Below, one piece after another: positions 28,612 to 37,651 of a stretch of 64,000 nt of DNA (the stretch's first letter is position 1; each line of letters starts with the position of its first letter). The stretch spans positions 248,001 through 312,000 of the forward strand of contig BPGT01000003.1 of NCBI GenBank assembly GCA_026003175.1, written 5' to 3'. This DNA is from Armatimonadota bacterium (GTDB lineage: Bacteria > Armatimonadota > HRBIN16). The notes under the pieces were generated by a model. That model did not search any database and was not told where the DNA came from. It saw nothing but the letters and a program-made list of their open reading frames with translations. Made by a program: the position numbers and the translations under genes.

Positions 28612-28893
28612 TCAGGGAGTATCAGCTTGCCCCACGCACACTCTACCGAACACGTTCGGGACAACAAGGGTTTCGTCACCGTATGGGACACTGGGAGTAA
28701 CCCCATTCAGCATCGGGAGCCCTTCTGCGAATAACTTCCATCCCTGTTGGGCGGGTTGTTCGCACCGCCACAGTAGGGCTGAAGCCTCGAGTGCCGCCAC
28801 ACTCATCTGCTCATAGAGCCATTGGCGCAGATCTTCTTCGCTTCCGAAGCGAAGGCGCAGGTAATATGCAGGTTGTCGATGTTCTGGCGTCAT
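28612..28893 (-). CDS. Small protein ending the tubulin-like operon
   Basis: This 93-residue protein starts at 28893, where ATGA overlaps the stop of the preceding gene. It has an amphipathic helical N-terminal half (RLRFGSEEDLRQWLYEQMS) and no signal or membrane segment. It seems intact. Its function is unknown; the coupling places it with the tubulin-like module. Confidence 0.6.
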   Translation of the reverse strand: MTPEHRQPAYYLRLRFGSEEDLRQWLYEQMSVAALEASALLWRCEQPAQQGWKLFAEGLPMLNGVTPSVPYGDETLVVPNVFGRVCVGQADTP

Positions 28894-29725
28894 CCAGTGG
28901 TCAGATAGCTGGAGAGTTTATCCATGCGCTCTTGCAGGTCGGCTATCGTGTTGACGCCTATATCCTCTAATCCTTTGCGGATAACTCCGGCAAGGTCGCG
29001 TTTGCCCCATAGATCCTCTGCCATTGGCTGGATATGTTTCCAGTGAGAGACGATGGCTCGCAAGGGGCAGAGGCAAAAGAATTCGCAACGCTTGAGCCGC
29101 CTGTCTCCAAAAAGAAACACGGGTGTTGATATCCTGCTGCAGGTTTTGAGCGCGTTGCAGTTCGCTGGTGATAACCTCCTTCATCTCCTGTGCCGCGCTT
29201 TGTAGGACACAGAGCGCCCTCCACCGAAGGAGGCTCCGCGTGTTGTGCGCGCAGGCGTCCCAGGTAGTCGTCCCAGCATTCCTGCAGTCGCATCCTTCGG
29301 CGGCGATAGAATAGGTATGCTCCACCGCCTACTGCAACCGGAGGCAATATCGCCATTGCTGCCACCGCCCACCATAAGTAGGCTCCCAAGTGGGGAGACA
29401 GTAGCCATAACACGCCTTGCAGTAGAGCCCACAGGACCAAGATGATGAGGGCAGCAATGGTGATGAGTTTCCCTAGTTCTGGCAGCCGCTCCAGCGCCTC
29501 TTCAAAACGTGTTCTGGCGGATTGGATAGTTTCGCTGCCGGGCTCCGTCATGTTCATTTTCAGAACCGTCCAACGATCCATCGCCTGTGCTGCTTTATCC
29601 AGAGCGAATCTAAGCAGGGGCAGAGCACCCCGTGACACCAGCATATTGTTCTGGATGTATTGTCGGAGGTAGCTGCGGAACACCTGCAGCATTTCATCTG
29701 CTGCTGATTTGCAACGCCTGTTCAT
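28890..29725 (-). pseudogene. Membrane protein of the tubulin-like operon, frame-broken twice
   Basis: Read across three frames, this gene encodes about 270 residues. First comes an N-terminal helical domain (MLQVFRSYLRQYIQNNM onward), then two membrane helices (LITIAALIILVLWALLQGVLWLL and a second), YRRRRMRLQECWDDYLG, then after a shift near 29215 ALCVLQSAAQEMKEVITSEL, and after another near 29065 PLRAIVSHWKHIQPMAEDL to the stop at 28890. The start may be 29725 or the ATG at 29692, which directly follows the previous stop. Each shift is one base. The function is unknown. Confidence 0.55.
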
Positions 29726-30705
29726 TTTGAGGCAGCGTCTCTTGGCGCCAGCGGGCGTCCCACTCGTCTGTTTCCTGCAGCCATCGGTGTGGATCCCTGC
29801 TCAGTTCGGGACGGTCCTGTTGGAGCGACAGCGTCAATCCTGCGCCTGCACCAGCAACGTTGGGTATCGCTTGGAGCAGACGTTGCCACCAGGCGGTCTC
29901 TTCCGGTTCAAGTTGGGGGGGCTGTCTCCGGGGGTGTTTCCGGTTCGGTGTTGAGCACAGAGTAAGCATCTGCAAGCAGCTGGTACGTTAGGGCATCCTC
30001 AATCTCTGGTAGCGGCAGCACTACCAAACCGAAGCCGTGGTACTAACCACTCCTTATTAGACCCCAGCGGCTTGCGGAGCAACCAGTGTTCAACGCCGTG
30101 GTCTGTTGGCTGTAAGGCAGCAAAGAGAAAGTAAGGCAGGGTAGTCAAAAACTCATCCTCAGTGAGTATTGAACCATCTGAGCGTACCGGTGCCATTGTC
30201 CACCTGGAAGCAAAAGTGAGTAAATCGCTGTGGGTAAGTATGGCGAGTATCTTCGTCGTTAGGAAGGTCCAGACCACTGGAGTGTGGGTGGATAATCAAT
30301 ATGTGCAGCCTGGGCGGTATCTTCTCTTTGATGGACAGAGCAGCCTCTTCCAGCATACGAACGATCGCCGGGATATGCTCTGTTTGGTCACTGCTGACAA
30401 CTAACAGGATCTGCACCAGCAAGTAGCCACCAGCTGGACCAACGCTGATGCCTGCGTTTCTGACCCTTTCAAGATTTCGCTCGGCGCGGATGCGGCACAT
30501 CCATTCTGCAAGAGGGTTGACGAATTGCCCCGAAATACCCACATGGGGGATATGCAATTTCTCTACCCTTCCTGCTTCGTACCGCCCGATAGCCACGATG
30601 TGTTCCACTGGCGAGCGAAAGGAGCGCAATAAACGCACCGTTTGCTCTAAGGACCTGAGAGGCAATTTCCCCCGAGCCAATTACCAGCATGGGGTGGGTG
30701 GTCAT
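29694..30705 (-). pseudogene. Soluble protein of the tubulin-like operon, frame-broken several times
   Basis: The start at 30705 (MTTHPMLVIGSG) follows TAGGAG. The protein then runs in other frames: GKLPLRSLEQTVRLLRSF after a run of five Cs (plus strand, near 30670), LHILIIHPHSSG, then YHGFGLVVLPLPEIEDALTY after a shift near 30045, then after a C7 run near 29915 QLEPEETAWWQRLLQAIPN to 29694. The expected product is about 335 residues with an N-terminal Rossmann-like strand like that of the tubulin-like protein. All shifts are single bases; some lie in mononucleotide runs. Confidence 0.5.
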
Positions 30706-30743
30706 TCTCAGCTCCTATTGCTTAGGCTCGCCCGTGGTAGCGC

Positions 30744-33700
30744 CTAGTCCTCCTTCTGCAGTTGTTGGATATAGCGTCTAAGAGCCTCCATCTCCTCATT
30801 CAGCCGTTCTCTAAGCCTCTCGCTTGGCTCAGCATTGACTACTGCTACCAGCTGCTCGATGTATTCTTCCAGATGCATGGCTATCGTGTTGCGACCAGCC
30901 CATTTTTCCAGCTGTACACGAGCCGCGTCCGCCCGCTTCTGATGTTCTTGGCTGAACCGGAAGGCTTTGTAAGCAGCTTCTCTCCCATCACCAAGTTTAT
31001 CTTTGTGGAGTGGACGTTTCTGCCTCCATTTCCCCCACTGTGGAGGCAGTTTATCGGTCAGGGCTATCTGCCATTCAGTCTCGTACTTGGGTACCAGCTC
31101 ACCGGAGGTGGTTTCATGTATACCGATATAGTATGAATCACCATGTATAGCAATATATCCGTAAGCTGCCGCCCAGCTCCACAGCTCATCTACGTGATGC
31201 TGGTTCTCAACAGGATGAAGCGGAGGTAGCTTGTCAAAGAACCGTTTATCGAGGTGGAGCCTCGCTTTCACCTTGGGGTCGGCTATGCGTCGTTGATAGA
31301 AATGTCTCATTCTATTGGCGCTGCTCAGGTAGTAAGCACGCGCGCCGTAGGTGCGAAGCATGACCGTTAGCGCAAAGGGATAGCCGTCCTCTACCACCTC
31401 CGGACGATATCCATACTCCTGGCACAGTTGCGAGACTGCCTGTTTCAGTTCCTCAATATGCTCCTGCATGCCGTCCGTACCGTTCCTGGTGATTGGCATA
31501 CTCACCGCCATCAGCGTCTCGAACCGTGGTTCGCCCGGAGGACTGCTTGTACTCCAGAACGGCTGGCAAACGTCGAACAACAGGTCCAGTTTGCGCTTCA
31601 GGTACTCTGCTCTTGGTGTCTCTTTGTCCTTATCTCTAAGCACGACATTTAGTACGTTCGCTTCTTTGCGTAGCAGGGGCAAGAGCACCTCCGCAGCCGC
31701 TCGCAAACACAGTTCCGCGTCCTCTTCGGCAGTGAGGCGGGTCATGGTCAGGTTCCCAAAAGCAGGTTCGTGCTCGATTTGCGAGCGCTCCGCTGCTATC
31801 CTGTGGCGAATCTTATCATGTGGAACTTGAATCTGTTTATAGAAACTATCGAAGTCTTGGCTCACCATTGCGAGCCACTCCAGAGTGTAGCCCTGAGCGT
31901 ATTGCTGGCTCACAATGCGGTTCGCCCACTCTTTGAGCTTCTCAGCGGTTTTCTCGTTGTGTTTTTGCCAGTTCTGCACCAGCTGTGCCCATTCACGAAG
32001 GTTTGCTGCTAAAGGTAGCTGTAGTCTATTCCCTTGCTGTTCAATCGCTTGCAGCGCAGCAGACAGAGCCAGACGAGTGAGACTCTCATTTGCGAAGGCC
32101 TTCAATTGGTCTATGGCTTGGTCTATAGCGGCAATCTCTGATGGTGTACCGAGCGAGAACCACCCTATTTGGGCTTCTCTCAGCCTGCGACATTGCAGGT
32201 TGAAGCTTTGTATAGCTTCATCGATAACGGTTTCCTGCCTTTTTATCTTCTCGCTGATCGAGTTTTTCACCTGGTCGACGGCTTCGGCGAGTTGGTTTAG
32301 AAAAGCCTCTGCAGCTTCGTACCCCAAGTTTTCGAGTATCTCCTCCGCCTTTGTGCCTGCCGCCTCCAGAGCGTTTTGCAGGTGCTCTGATGCTTTCTTT
32401 TCTATTGTCTTCTGCTGTTCAGGTAGCCAGCGGGGACGGAGCCGCTCGAACTCGTCGTTCAACAACTGCGCCACGTACTCGAACTTCGCCTTCCAGCTTT
32501 TGTGACCAGCACCTTCAGCCTGGTTGAGTAGCTGCTGTTTCTGCGGGGGAGTGTAATACAGTCTGGTGCCGTTTGCGTTCAGCAGGTTTTCGGTTAACAG
32601 GTTACTGTTGTCACGCTCATCCAGGCTGTGTGTTCGCAGAAAGGTGTCCACCTCCTGAAACATGTCGCCGGATGCGTGCTTGGCTTTCGGCTCAAACCAT
32701 GCCTCCAGCGCAGCTCTGGCAGCGCAGTATCGTACGAGCTCTTCTATCGGTATCGCCAGGTTAGTGACCGCAAGGCTGTTCATGAGGCGAGGTTCGCCTG
32801 TTTCCGCACAGGGGATAGTCTCGATGACCGCCAGCGAATTGCGCTTGGCGCTGCGGGCGCGTGCTCCCAACGGCGAGCCGATATCAAGCATCAGGCTTCG
32901 CGCTACCATCTCGAAAGCGTCCCTCTTGCTGGTAACACCTTGTCCCTTGGCATTGGTGCCTTCTATCAGAAAGACCTCATCGAAGAGCGGTTCCTTCAGC
33001 GTTAATTCTCCTATCATCGGATAGGTGAACGTCCACCGCTCATTTTGAATGTGTTTGGGATTGCAAAAATACTCTAATTCCATTAGACCTGCGTAGGCAT
33101 TGGCTTCGATCACCTCCATCAGAGTAGAGCTGATCCCACTCTCATGACTGAACACAGAAGGCAGATAGAATATCCCGACGGTCTCTCCGTCAAGGTTGTT
33201 CTGTTCCATCAGATGCCGGACGACTAGCGCCGTGTCTAAAAAGATGCCAGATCCGGTTCCTCCACACAGGGAGCTGATAATGTAGATGCGCGGTTGAGAA
33301 TGGACAACCTTGATGTTTTGCTGTGCGCCTAGCATCATTGCTTGGGCAAGAGTGCGTACTTGCATGATGCGCTGTATCGCTGGCATAATGTAGCCCGGGA
33401 TAGATCGTGTCAAAGGAGGCATGAAAGGCAAACCTGCCAACAGGGCGAATGCCTGCTGCTCCTATCGCATCCTTCAGAATAACTACGTCTATCCCGTCGC
33501 CCAAAAACTGCTCGAAGTAAGGATGCAGATTGCGATCTCTCCTGAGCTCGCTGATCAGCTTCTCTGGATTATGCACAACCACGGACGCTCGCTCGTACTC
33601 CTCTACCGCCGCCAAATCACCGTCTTCCGTATAGACTCCTTCGTCCGTGTCTATGAAGAGAAAGCTGATCAGGGTATTCATCTGATATCGCTCGCGAAGA

Positions 33701-33837
33701 ATGCGCTTCAGCCTGCGAGCAGTCTCTACGCCGCTTCCACCTAAACCAATCACGAGCGTAGGGCGGAACTCGCCACCTTCTGTGAACTGGACTGCGCTCA
33801 TGACTTCCTTCGTACGCGCTAAAACCGGGTGACGCAT
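30744..33837 (-). pseudogene. Tubulin/FtsZ-like GTPase (Tubulin_2 type), one frameshift
   Basis: The first frame (start 33837, GAGGAGGT upstream) reads TLVIGLGGSGVETARRLKR and SFLFIDTDEG. After a one-base shift near 33420 the second frame continues as MPPLTRSIPGYIMPAIQRI, then IYIISSLCGGTGSGIFLDTA with the tubulin-signature GGTGSG loop, for about 890 more residues. A long coiled-coil-rich region (about 400-650) and a C-terminal helical domain follow. Family members are giant FtsZ-like proteins implicated in membrane remodelling (FtsZ-like families described by Makarova and Koonin). About 1030 residues in total. The body is otherwise intact, so a sequencing error is possible. Confidence 0.75.
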
Positions 33838-33849
33838 CCCTCTACCTCC

Positions 33850-35080
33850 TCATGAAGACGGTATCATTTGCATGAACCGCCAGTATGTCCACATTCCGTA
33901 AAGGAGAACTGCCGTTGCCAGGAAGAGTACCACTCGCTTGGACATCGTGAACGACCAGAAGGGCAACCTCATCTTTCCAGCTGCTCTGCACTCCCTATAG
34001 TACACTACTCGGTCGCCTGCAGGAAAGGCAATGGTGCTGGGATGGGGACGTATCTCTTTCCATCCGGTCCCATCCTCCATCCGAACATGCAAGAACTGTT
34101 CCCCTGGTTTTGCCATCACGGTGAAAAGCGTTCCTTGCACACCAGGTATCTGTATGGAACAACCAGAACCTCCTACTGTTTCATTAACCTCTTTTAATTT
34201 CTGAGGATGTACCTCCACCGGATAGGCGTTGCCATCTTTAGCACGGATGTCGAGGATGTGATTATACAGCCATACCTGCTTAGAAGGCAGCAAAAACGCT
34301 GCTACCAGTAACATGGTTCCCACCCAAAACGGCCACACCGGTGGAAACACGACGTTTACCCACACGCTATCCGGTTCCGATTCTATCCATCGTCCCTCGC
34401 GCAGTGTCTGGGCAGCCATAAAAAGGCGATACCTGCCCGGCCGCGGAAAGTCTATGCGAGCCGAGAAGCTGCTGGAGGGATTTTCTGGAACAATGGCTTT
34501 AGCTGCAGGTTCTATCCAGCAACGCAATCGCACTTCGTTGTCTGCAGGACGGTAAAGTTGTTGTTGGGAACCGACAAGCAGTGAAGCGGATACCTTCGTG
34601 ACGGACGCCACCCCGGGCATCATGATTCGGGGAGGTAATGTCCACGTAGGGAACCTGTACTACCGAGAAGGCAATTGGTTCGCTCCATTTCTCACGTTGC
34701 ACTTTTGAAGCAATGTCCGTCTGCTGTAGACGGGCTTTGATTTGAAAAGTGCCCTGCTCGTGCAGAGTATACATGTTGGTAAACAGCCCATCACCGGCAA
34801 CTGTATCCGTGTGAGAACCGTCATCATAAAGGGAAACTCGCTCGACCAGCCTTCCGGTTGCAGTAAATATATTGGCGGTCACGAAGTGGCGCGCTACAGA
34901 GGAAGACGGAGCCGCACGAACTTCTATACGAATGCTGGGTTCAGCTTTACCCCAGGCGTAAACCTGCTGGTTCTGTGGTGAAACTACCTCAGGAACAGGC
35001 AGAGACTGGGCGCAGAGTGGAGACGTGCTCCATAGCCACAAGCCAACCAAACTTATCCCGATTAGGCGTCCTGCACGCAT
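33850..35080 (-). pseudogene. Secreted membrane-anchored partner of the tubulin-like protein, one frameshift
   Basis: A signal peptide (MRAGRLIGISLVGLWLWSTSPLCAQ) leads to Ig-like beta domains, including VERVSLYDDGSHTDTVAGDG, which resembles the choice-of-anchor-X type. After DITSP the frame shifts at a G run at 34629-34632 and continues as MMPGVASVTKVSASLLVG. Two membrane helices follow (FPPVWPFWVGTMLLVAAFLL and VVLFLATAVLLYGMW) enclosing a cytoplasmic or periplasmic domain. AGGAGG precedes the ATG at 35080. It is the first gene of the operon; the tubulin-like gene begins 12 bases after its stop. Confidence 0.6.
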
Positions 35081-35483
35081 TAGAGTGCCTCCTACTGCGT
35101 GAGAGGGTGCGACTATTCGTCATCATGCTCGGTCATGATGCTTACTCTTATAGACACTTTATGATATCAAATGTTTCAACAAAAGTCGAGCTTTTAGGGC
35201 AAATCGGGTAAATTTGCCAGGTACTGTTCACTGAGAGTGCTCTTCTCTATACATGAAGGTGCTCCAGAGGACAGAGGCAAGCATTGTCACTGAAAATTCC
35301 TCCCAAGAACCTGAAACATTCCCCTGCGCTTGTGCATCCAAAAGAGTGAAGGAGAAACCGCAGAGTACTTCCACGAGGATATTCAGGTAGGGTAGACCTT
35401 CCCGCAGAACGGTTGCTCGCCCAGGAAGGTGAGAGGAGAACATGCGCTTTTGCGCATCTGGGAAGATGGAGGTTCAATCAAGT
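35081..35483. other. 403-bp AT-richer intergenic region
   Basis: This separates the divergent tubulin-like operon and the gene at 35484. The part from 35130 to 35220 is notably AT-rich and is the probable promoter zone for the operon; a loose match (TCGACT, 17 bases, TATCAT) can be read on the minus strand but is not convincing. Two 70-codon frames at 35228-35477 have no ribosome site and are not called. Confidence 0.4.
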
Positions 35484-36290
35484 ATGTGCTATGCTTCCAC
35501 ATTCCGATTTTTTACACACGTGGAAGTGGATGGTCTGGACGAAGTGCCTTTTGAGGATAGCGAGACCCTGCGCCTGCCCGACCCGCAGCGACTGCAGCAG
35601 CTGGAAGACCTGAGGATAGAGTTCCTGAACCGCTGGCAGGCGGGGGATGAGATAGAAGAGCTGGTTCAACGCATCTTTGCTGTGCCGGTAGATACCTTCC
35701 TGCCGGCGCATCCGCCTCGCTACATTGTGGGCTACAACGTACGGTGTCCCTTGCAGGCGCAGGTGTTTCGCCGCGTCATGCGCGACCTGGACCGCTACGT
35801 CGCCGTGCTGTCGCGCTTTGTGCTGCGGGTGCGGGTGTTGTCGGTTGCTTCGCCGCTACCGGAACGCCCTGATGGCTACCCCGACCTGCCGAGCGTGCTG
35901 CGCACCATCCGCTATTTAGGCGAGGGGCTGTGGCTGCGGGCGGTGAGCGACTTCGAGCGTGAGAGGCGCAAAACGCTGTGCTGGCGCTATCTTCCCAAAT
36001 CGCTGGTGGCGGAGGGGGCTGTGCCGGAAGGGATGGCGGACGCGCTGGACCTGCTGCTGTATAAAGCGCAAATCGTGCGTATCCTCGCCAGCGACCCTGT
36101 GGGAGAACTGCAAGATGCTCTGGCGCAAGGTGCGGAGGAGTATGTGCACGCGCTACATCGAGTGGTAAAAGCGGTAGCCATTCACCGGCGTCGGGAACGT
36201 CTTAGAAAATTTATGCTGTCGCCTCGCTCTTACCCTGTCGCGAGACGGCAGTTGACCACCTCAACACGGAACCTCGGGCATAGAGCATAG
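35484..36290 (+). CDS. Unknown conserved-looking cytoplasmic protein
   Basis: The 268-residue frame starts at the ATG at 35484, 10 bases after GGAGGT. It is rich in Arg, Leu and Glu, with repeated helical heptads (RLQQLEDLRIEFLNRWQAGDEIEEL; RRVMRDLDRYVAVLSRF) and a HALHRVVKAVAIHRRRERLRKF tail. There is no signal, membrane helix or known motif. GC content is back to that of the flanking genome. A strong terminator follows. The function is unknown. Confidence 0.65.
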   Translation: MCYASTFRFFTHVEVDGLDEVPFEDSETLRLPDPQRLQQLEDLRIEFLNRWQAGDEIEELVQRIFAVPVDTFLPAHPPRYIVGYNVRCPLQAQVFRRVMRDLDRYVAVLSRFVLRVRVLSVASPLPERPDGYPDLPSVLRTIRYLGEGLWLRAVSDFERERRKTLCWRYLPKSLVAEGAVPEGMADALDLLLYKAQIVRILASDPVGELQDALAQGAEEYVHALHRVVKAVAIHRRRERLRKFMLSPRSYPVARRQLTTSTRNLGHRA

Positions 36291-36351: not shown

Positions 36352-37651
36352 CTACTTACCGACAGGGATCATCTCGCCGTGCGCTTCTAACAGGTCATCT
36401 ACCAACGACCAGATTTCGTCCAGCGTGAGCTCAGCCGCGGTGTGCGGGTCGAGCATCGCCGCATGATAGATATGCTCGCGTTTGCCGGTCAACGCGGCTT
36501 CTACCGTGAGGTACTGCACGTTGACGTTGGTGGAGATGATCGCTGCCAGCTGTGGGGGCAAGTCGCCGATGCGCACAGGCTGCACGCCGTTCTTGTCCAC
36601 CAGGCAGGGCACCTCCACACAACAACCGGGCAACAGGTTGGTAATCAACCCATCGTTGCGCACGTTGCCGTACACCACGCGCGGGACGCCCGTCTCCATA
36701 CTATGGATAATCAACGAGCCGTACTCCATGCTACGGTGCACCTCTATCGGCTCGTCGCTTTCGAACTCCACGCGCATCCGTTCCCAGCGGGCAATCACTT
36801 CCTCACAGCGGCGGATATATTCATCCAGCGGGATGTTGAACCGCTCGATGAGGTCGGGACGGTCGCGCCGGATGAAGTAGGGCACGTACTCCGCGTAGTG
36901 TTCGCTGGACTCGGTGACGAAGTAGCCCAATCGCATCATCATCTCGTAGCGCACGCGGTTATAGTGGGGCACGCGCCCCTCCAGATATATCTGGCGCAGA
37001 GCAGGGTACAGGTCTTGGCCGTTGCGCTCAAAGCGCAGGTAGAAAGCGTGGTGATTGATGCCTGCGCAGACGTAGTTGACCTCCTCGAAGGGGATTTTAA
37101 GGTCTTCCACCGCCAGCGACCACGCCGTGCCCTGTACACTGTGGCACAGCCCCACTACTTTCACCTTCGAAGCGCGGGTACCACGCCCAGCAGTTGATTG
37201 CCATTGGGTTGGTGTAGTTGATGAACAGAGCATCGGGACATAACTCCTCCATGTCGCGCGCGATGCTCAGCAATACGGGGATGGTTCGCAGTCCACGCAT
37301 GATGCCCCCAACGCCCAGTGTGTCGGCGATGGTCTGCCGCAAGCCGTACTTCTTGGGGATTTCGAAATCGATCACGGTGGAGGGTTTGTAGCCGCCCACC
37401 TGAATGGTGTTGATGACGTAATCTGCGCCGTCCAGTGCCTCGCGTCGGTCCAAAGTGGCGGTGATGGTAGGATGAGCGTTCACCGCCTTTGCCACCTTCT
37501 CCGCCACGCGCTTCGCGGTGTGCAAACGGTCGGGGTCAATATCCATTAAAGCGATGTGTGACTCCGCCAGTTCGGGGAAGCTCAAGATGTCGCCCAGCAG
37601 GTTCTTGGTGAACACCACGCTCCCCGCACCGATGATGGTTATTTTGGGCAT
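36352..37651 (-). pseudogene. GH4 family alpha-galactosidase/glucosidase, one frameshift
   Basis: The N-terminal frame (start 37651) reads MPKITIIGAGSVVFTKNLLGDI, IALMDIDPDRL, INTIQVGGY and FINYTNPMAINCWAWYPR. After a one-base shift near 37165 the second frame continues KVKVVGLCHSVQGTAWSLAVE, with the GLCHSVQG and CAGINHHAFYL motifs (metal-binding Cys and His) of GH4. These enzymes use NAD+ and a divalent metal to hydrolyse alpha-galactosides or alpha-glucuronides. The combined length of about 430 residues fits. Removing one base in the CCCGCGC stretch would restore a typical alignment. Confidence 0.75.

Follow-up and report, generated by a model that had tools for sequence, protein, structure and literature searches.

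We analysed a window of 64,000 nucleotides (nt) from an Armatimonadota bacterium (assembly GCA_026003175.1, contig BPGT01000003.1, positions 248,001 to 312,000; the genome has 4.1 Mb in 7 contigs). Window coordinates below refer to this whole stretch. The window carries a module of three genes, A1, A2 and A3, built around A2, a tubulin-like protein of the FtsZl1 (Tubulin_2) family. By profile comparison, the N-terminal domain of A3 is a diverged relative of Tubulin_2, and structural models suggest a tubulin fold. The domain lacks the GTP signature, so that in A3 the GTP-binding tubulin of the module probably has a GTPase-dead counterpart. Moreover, within the same genus a divergent module takes its place at one chromosomal site. 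We consider the chances about even that A1, A2 and A3 form an accessory three-component FtsZl1 system that acts at the membrane and is driven by GTP.

Gene content of the locus and its broken reading frames

The gene content was determined by searching the window with the intact orthologs of two same-genus genomes (G009 and G003) using tblastn. The intact copies have three genes, with protein lengths of 430, 1032 and 700 amino acids (aa) for A1, A2 and A3 in G009. A preliminary description, made from the letters of the window, had listed six genes, which these relatives rule out: the six open reading frames are fragments of A1, A2 and A3 split by frameshifts, and in the window the three genes lie tightly packed on the minus strand (Table 1). 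Two of the frames had been taken for a secreted, double-anchored beta-rich protein; the anchoring stands, as A1 has both a choice-of-anchor X domain and transmembrane (TM) segments, but the two frames are one protein. Likewise, the proteins described as soluble Rossmann-like, two-helix membrane and 93-residue proteins are the N-terminal, middle and C-terminal parts of A3. In other words, there are two partners of the tubulin-like protein instead of four uncharacterised subunits, and the N-terminal domain of one of them can be characterised as diverged tubulin-like.

As relatives of the window, the GTDB collection contains Armatimonadota assemblies, including HRbin16, Chthonomonadia bacterium and Fimbriimonadales KatS3mg018. 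A3 was found in 16 out of 291 genomes of the phylum (one weak hit and one remnant included), mainly in the same genus and in one other family. Upstream of A3 lies A2 immediately, followed by A1, as far as the fetched contigs reach; this does not apply to G004, which has the remnant, or to G235, which gave the weak hit. An independent GTDB scan gave A1 and/or A3 beside A2 at all A2 loci (12 out of 12), and two Armatimonadota families share the gene order A1-A2-A3. The preliminary description would have been refuted by a lack of conserved co-occurrence with tubulin-like proteins elsewhere, and this refutation does not hold.

Profile searches were run with the window pieces and with intact orthologs, and both Tubulin_2 in A2 and choice-of-anchor X in A1 came out above their cut-offs. 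For Tubulin_2 (Pfam PF13809, curated cut-off 27 bits) the two window pieces of A2 scored 120.7 and 53.9 bits and the intact ortholog 181.3 bits. The GTP-binding signature loop CGGTGSG is invariant in the aligned A2 orthologs, with C in place of the first G of the classical GGGTG(S/T)G, and the first glycine loop, GLGGSG, is conserved in the alignment; the earlier identification of a tubulin/FtsZ-like protein with a GGTGSG motif is therefore borne out. Members of the FtsZl1 family have a central extended coiled coil and an alpha-helical C-terminal domain; residues 400-640 of A2 gave weak matches to helical bundles. Among solved structures the sequence matches of A2 and A3 were only helical or coiled-coil look-alikes, and a phage origin was rejected as the IMG/VR search gave no A2 relative. 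A role in cell division is unlikely because a canonical FtsZ is present and intact elsewhere in the genome and because the module is replaceable (see below).

In A1, the choice-of-anchor X model (NCBIfam NF041940) matched residues 103-138 of the ortholog at L037:5491-6783 with 51.9 bits (cut-off 25). By hydropathy only, the intact ortholog consists of a signal-peptide-like segment, the choice-of-anchor X domain, a TM segment (263-287), about 100 residues and a further hydrophobic segment (396-415). Pfam found no VWA match in A1; a vWA partner is frequent, not universal, in FtsZl1 operons. By inspection, the vWA protein of the FtsZl1 operons of Thermales is laid out comparably, i.e. signal, outer domains, TM segment and cytosolic tail, and by analogy A1 may fill the place of the anchored vWA protein of other FtsZl1 operons.

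Table 1. Features of the A1-A2-A3 locus and two neighbouring genes (window coordinates).
Feature	Position	Strand	Description	Basis
A1	33853..35080	-	about 410-430 aa, membrane-anchored, periplasm-facing	tblastn with intact orthologs, frameshift-aware alignment, hydropathy TM
A1, choice-of-anchor X domain (approximate)	34739..34846	-		placed in the window by alignment to intact ortholog
A2	30747..33837	-	FtsZl1 / Tubulin_2, about 1030 aa	Pfam PF13809, ortholog alignment
A2, GLGGSG	33730..33747	-	first glycine loop (T1)	sequence, alignment
A2, CGGTGSG	33246..33266	-	GTP-binding signature loop (T4)	sequence, alignment
A3	28612..30705	-	about 660-700 aa	tblastn with intact G009 ortholog, frameshift-aware alignment, DNA alignment
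A3, N-terminal domain	29925..30705	-	predicted diverged Tubulin_2/tubulin-fold domain without GTP signature loop	profile-profile comparison, AlphaFold2 model and VIA comparison of intact ortholog
A3, TM hairpin	29306..29467	-	two hydrophobic segments	sequence, hydropathy
282-aa protein	35442..36290	+	divergently oriented from the module	no Pfam match
GH4-type glycosidase	36352..37651	-	interrupted by an insertion of one base at 37176	97% identical to ortholog

The reading frames of the module are interrupted by nine one-base insertions, located by frameshift-aware alignment: one in A1 (near 34609), one in A2 (near 33396) and seven in A3 (near 30651, 30239, 30034, 29919, 29708, 29230 and 29064). 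In addition, this alignment gave a net shift of -1 in A3, which DNA alignment showed to be a 16-nt deletion near 28900-28916. The ratio of nonsynonymous to synonymous substitution rates (dN/dS) against the intact G009 copy is about 0.10-0.19 and there are no in-frame nonsense codons, which indicates strong past purifying selection on each of the three genes. We think it quite possible, if somewhat short of an even chance, that in the present genome the module is a decaying cluster of pseudogenes and not a working system with base-calling errors. It is conspicuous that the ten indels fall within 6.2 kb, whereas breaks are absent from rpoB, from FtsZ and, in the window, from almost every other gene (a Viterbi frameshift scan over-penalised shifts and was used only for the unbroken state of most other window genes), and a replaceable module could be lost. 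On the other hand, all nine single-base events are insertions, which, together with the missing nonsense codons and the low dN/dS, speaks against decay, and an insertion of the same type breaks the highly conserved GH4 gene nearby. On these sequence patterns we lean slightly towards base-calling error as the source of the indels. The identity of the module is the same in either case.

The probable tubulin-like domain of A3

Pfam gave nothing above its cut-offs for A3. The similarity of its N-terminal 260 residues to the Tubulin_2 profile was calculated by profile-profile comparison and scored 41.7 (P 7e-5), whereas the best of 60 column shuffles reached 18.5 and the reversed profile 20.0. The tubulins of A1-A2-A3 modules (type A) were then all removed from the Tubulin_2 profile so that cis neighbours could not drive the score. 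The score was 36.7, with no shuffle above 22.4, and the alignment had a probability of 87% when it was forced from end to end. An iterated A3 profile that had absorbed tubulins produced far stronger E-values and was discarded for the clean profiles. Nine single-sequence controls, several of them with a dinucleotide fold, scored up to 27.5, and the highest of these was on a glycine loop of 22 columns.

The fold was investigated with an AlphaFold2 model of the N-terminal domain alone, taken from an intact ortholog (pTM 0.75, with good confidence up to about residue 200). In the VIA comparison, tubulins or BtubA occupied 17 of the 19 best rows, with Z values of 7.5-9.1 and alignments of about 165 residues that start at the first strand of tubulin; the full-length A3 model agrees with this result. 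The margins are modest, i.e. an INTS13 chain reached Z 8.0, flavoproteins up to 7.5, and unrelated folds lie within 1-1.5 Z. Moreover, Foldseek found no significant match for the N-terminal domain; its list is headed by vWA-, WrbA- and CD38-like chains. From this side, A3 might begin with an ordinary dinucleotide-fold domain of the flavodoxin, vWA or NAD type, whose likeness to tubulin would come from a common alpha/beta arrangement. We regard this as distinctly unlikely, given that the profile alignment with Tubulin_2 is collinear from end to end and scores above the shuffled, reversed and other-protein controls, and given the predominance of tubulins and BtubA among the best VIA rows. For full-length A3, Foldseek gave nothing significant, and the alpha-helical pore-forming proteins in its list match the helical part only and were not trusted.

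The GGTGSG loop is absent in all A3 sequences (10 out of 10). Because of this absence, and of the profile and fold matches, we read A3 as a tubulin-like protein without the usual GTP binding, followed by long helices. We speak of a diverged relative and not of a family member since Pfam misses A3.

A protein of 898 aa adjoins the FtsZl1 gene of a second FtsZl1 operon in a genome of another Armatimonadota family (G044, L050:2165-4861). It has a weak Tubulin_2-like profile signal (32.1 over 141 columns, single sequence) and may be a second tubulin-like partner without a GTP loop, in which case such partners may be more general.

Module exchange at one site and possible roles

Genomes G002 and G004 have both flanks of the locus in common (83-86% DNA identity). 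Between the flanks G002 has A1-A2-A3, whereas G004 has another module, referred to here as type B. The type B FtsZl1 protein shares about 28% identity with A2 over the part that matches. The first protein of the type B module is vWA-like and anchored by inspection, with no Pfam match. Of the other two, one is of the MotA/ExbB type and has a long coiled coil, and the last is of the MotB type with an OmpA domain. Genome G005 carries both types, and its counterparts of the last two proteins match the ZorA and ZorB models of PADLOC (E 1e-7). At the far edge of the type B module in G004 there is a 61-residue remnant of A3. The divergence of the modules is also far above that of the flanks: between G009 and G002 the A2 proteins are 48% identical with saturated synonymous sites, as against 97% identity and a synonymous divergence (dS) of 0.70 for the adjacent GH4 gene. 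The simplest reading of these sequences is replacement by divergent alleles, and the swap within the genus points to an accessory system, possibly related to conflict, rather than to a housekeeping one.

The gene for the 282-aa protein next to the module (Table 1) is conserved as module neighbour in G002, G003, G004 and G009 and forms one edge of the exchange site. Type B FtsZl1 modules lie at L034:7063-13965, L036:4746-11824, L045:5538-13094 and L051:4842-13612, and a plasmid of Deinococcus sp. QL22 (L119 4292-11089) has the type B layout, with genes annotated as MotA/TolQ/ExbB and OmpA.

The three genes, their conserved order, the state of their motifs, the homology of the A3 domain by profile and the within-genus replacement are directly supported, and we propose the following mechanism on top of them. 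A2, with its intact tubulin/FtsZ GTP loops, would assemble with GTP. A3 would contribute another tubulin-like domain, probably dead as a GTPase and carried by a long helical body that in the present genus includes a TM hairpin; at the inner membrane A3 could co-assemble with A2, or nucleate or cap it. A1 would cross the membrane, exposing an Ig-like/choice-of-anchor X region to the periplasm and another part to the cytosol, and may act as sensor or anchor, so that A3 and A1 together would tie A2 to the membrane. A signal would then lead to A2 assembly at the membrane, which would be deformed or permeabilised. The membrane association put forward in the preliminary description is retained here, given the TM segments of A1 and the hairpin of A3 in the same genus, with two partners in place of four.

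Several points weigh against this proposal besides the modest fold margins and the lack of a significant Foldseek match. According to hydropathy, the TM hairpin of A3 is present in the same genus and absent from A3 of the second family; PADLOC matches none of A1, A2 and A3 (E 0.01); and if the indels are real, the window copy may be non-functional.

As to the purpose of such a system, we tentatively entertain the possibility of an anti-phage or other conflict function, i.e. the proposed mechanism with its purpose specified: the module would sense an attack on the envelope and the assembly of A2 would kill or protect the cell via the membrane. The finding that the replacing module at the same site carries ZorA/ZorB-like genes is in line with this. 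So is the gene context of other FtsZl1 proteins: three Thermales plasmids (L112:5318-13395, L113:5428-13387 and L116:4366-12843) carry vWA, Tubulin_2, a hypothetical protein of about 680 aa and then brxL (3 out of 3), and an FtsZl1 gene of Azospirillum adjoins caspase-family genes. However, none of the ZorAB-like, brxL or caspase neighbours is seen at the present locus, where the module sits among sugar-metabolism genes, PADLOC is silent as noted, and the homology of the third Thermales protein to A3 is not significant. A housekeeping machine of the envelope, in which A2 and two lineage-specific partners would remodel the inner membrane or make vesicles in normal physiology, comes close to the preliminary description and seems to us less likely than not. 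It would agree with the family-level inference from genome context in PMC2875224, with the membrane segments of A1 and A3 and with the strong purifying selection on all three genes, but it fits poorly with the patchy distribution of A3 in the phylum, with a divergent module that takes over the site and leaves a piece of A3 behind, and with a module divergence well above that of the flanks. A broader view, which we rate as unlikely, is that FtsZl1 modules are swappable membrane conflict systems of bacteria. The GTP-binding tubulin would have as its partner either a GTPase-dead tubulin, in a hetero-assembly of two tubulins tethered to the membrane (type A), or an ion-driven motor of the ZorAB kind (type B), and one type would substitute for the other at one chromosomal site.

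Comparison with known systems

FtsZl1 and the vWA/FtsZl1 operons were described by Makarova and Koonin 2010 (PMC2875224), who proposed membrane remodelling, reported OmpA-family neighbours and found a vWA-domain protein in the majority of the known operons. FtsZl1 is a branch of the tubulin superfamily, and we found no reported function for it. Like other members of the family, A2 has an N-terminal Tubulin_2 domain, GTP loops and a long, possibly helical remainder, it is encoded together with an anchored membrane protein, and its genome also contains a canonical FtsZ. Unlike in the known operons, type A has no vWA, kinase, P-loop GTPase or OmpA gene, and A1 and A3 are found instead.

The Thermales operons resemble type A in gene order and gene sizes, and their third protein also begins with a strand-like HPTLLL segment, but their first protein has a vWA domain. 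One of the three plasmids has Swt1-HEPN/DUF499 and DUF1156 genes upstream. On a plasmid of Azospirillum sp. TSA2s (L117:5950-12914) the tubulin-like gene lies beside two caspase-family genes and OmpA-family genes. Homology to A3 could not be shown for the third proteins of the Thermales and Azospirillum loci. No paper was found that treats tubulin-like proteins together with BrxL, nor one that links them to both Zorya and MotA. The likeness to Zorya is confined to type B, whose modules at this site in the sister genomes encode proteins similar to ZorA and ZorB, with an OmpA domain. Type A has neither ZorA nor ZorB, and in type B there are FtsZl1 and a vWA-like protein in addition. No ZorC, ZorD or ZorE was seen in the type B loci, and no systematic search for these three was made.

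FtsZl1 and its proposed role in membrane remodelling are thus already known, and the diverged tubulin-like domain of A3 and the module swap within a genus are new. In the searched literature we found neither a tubulin-like partner without a GTP signature nor an exchange with a motor-bearing version, with the proviso that PMC2875224, of which only parts could be consulted, may list the partner families uninterpreted. Such a partner offers a concrete, testable mechanism, i.e. hetero-assembly, capping or membrane recruitment. The exchange of two-tubulin and motor-bearing versions within a genus suggests accessory, rapidly exchanged machines and thereby narrows the search for a function to roles in conflict or envelope stress. 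The closest parallel for the proposed pairing is with the paired tubulins (alpha/beta tubulin, BtubA/BtubB), where two tubulin-fold proteins are also made together and GTP turnover by one of them is dispensable. In comparison with these, A3 has diverged much further, has no GTP loop and carries a helical body with, in this genus, a TM hairpin.

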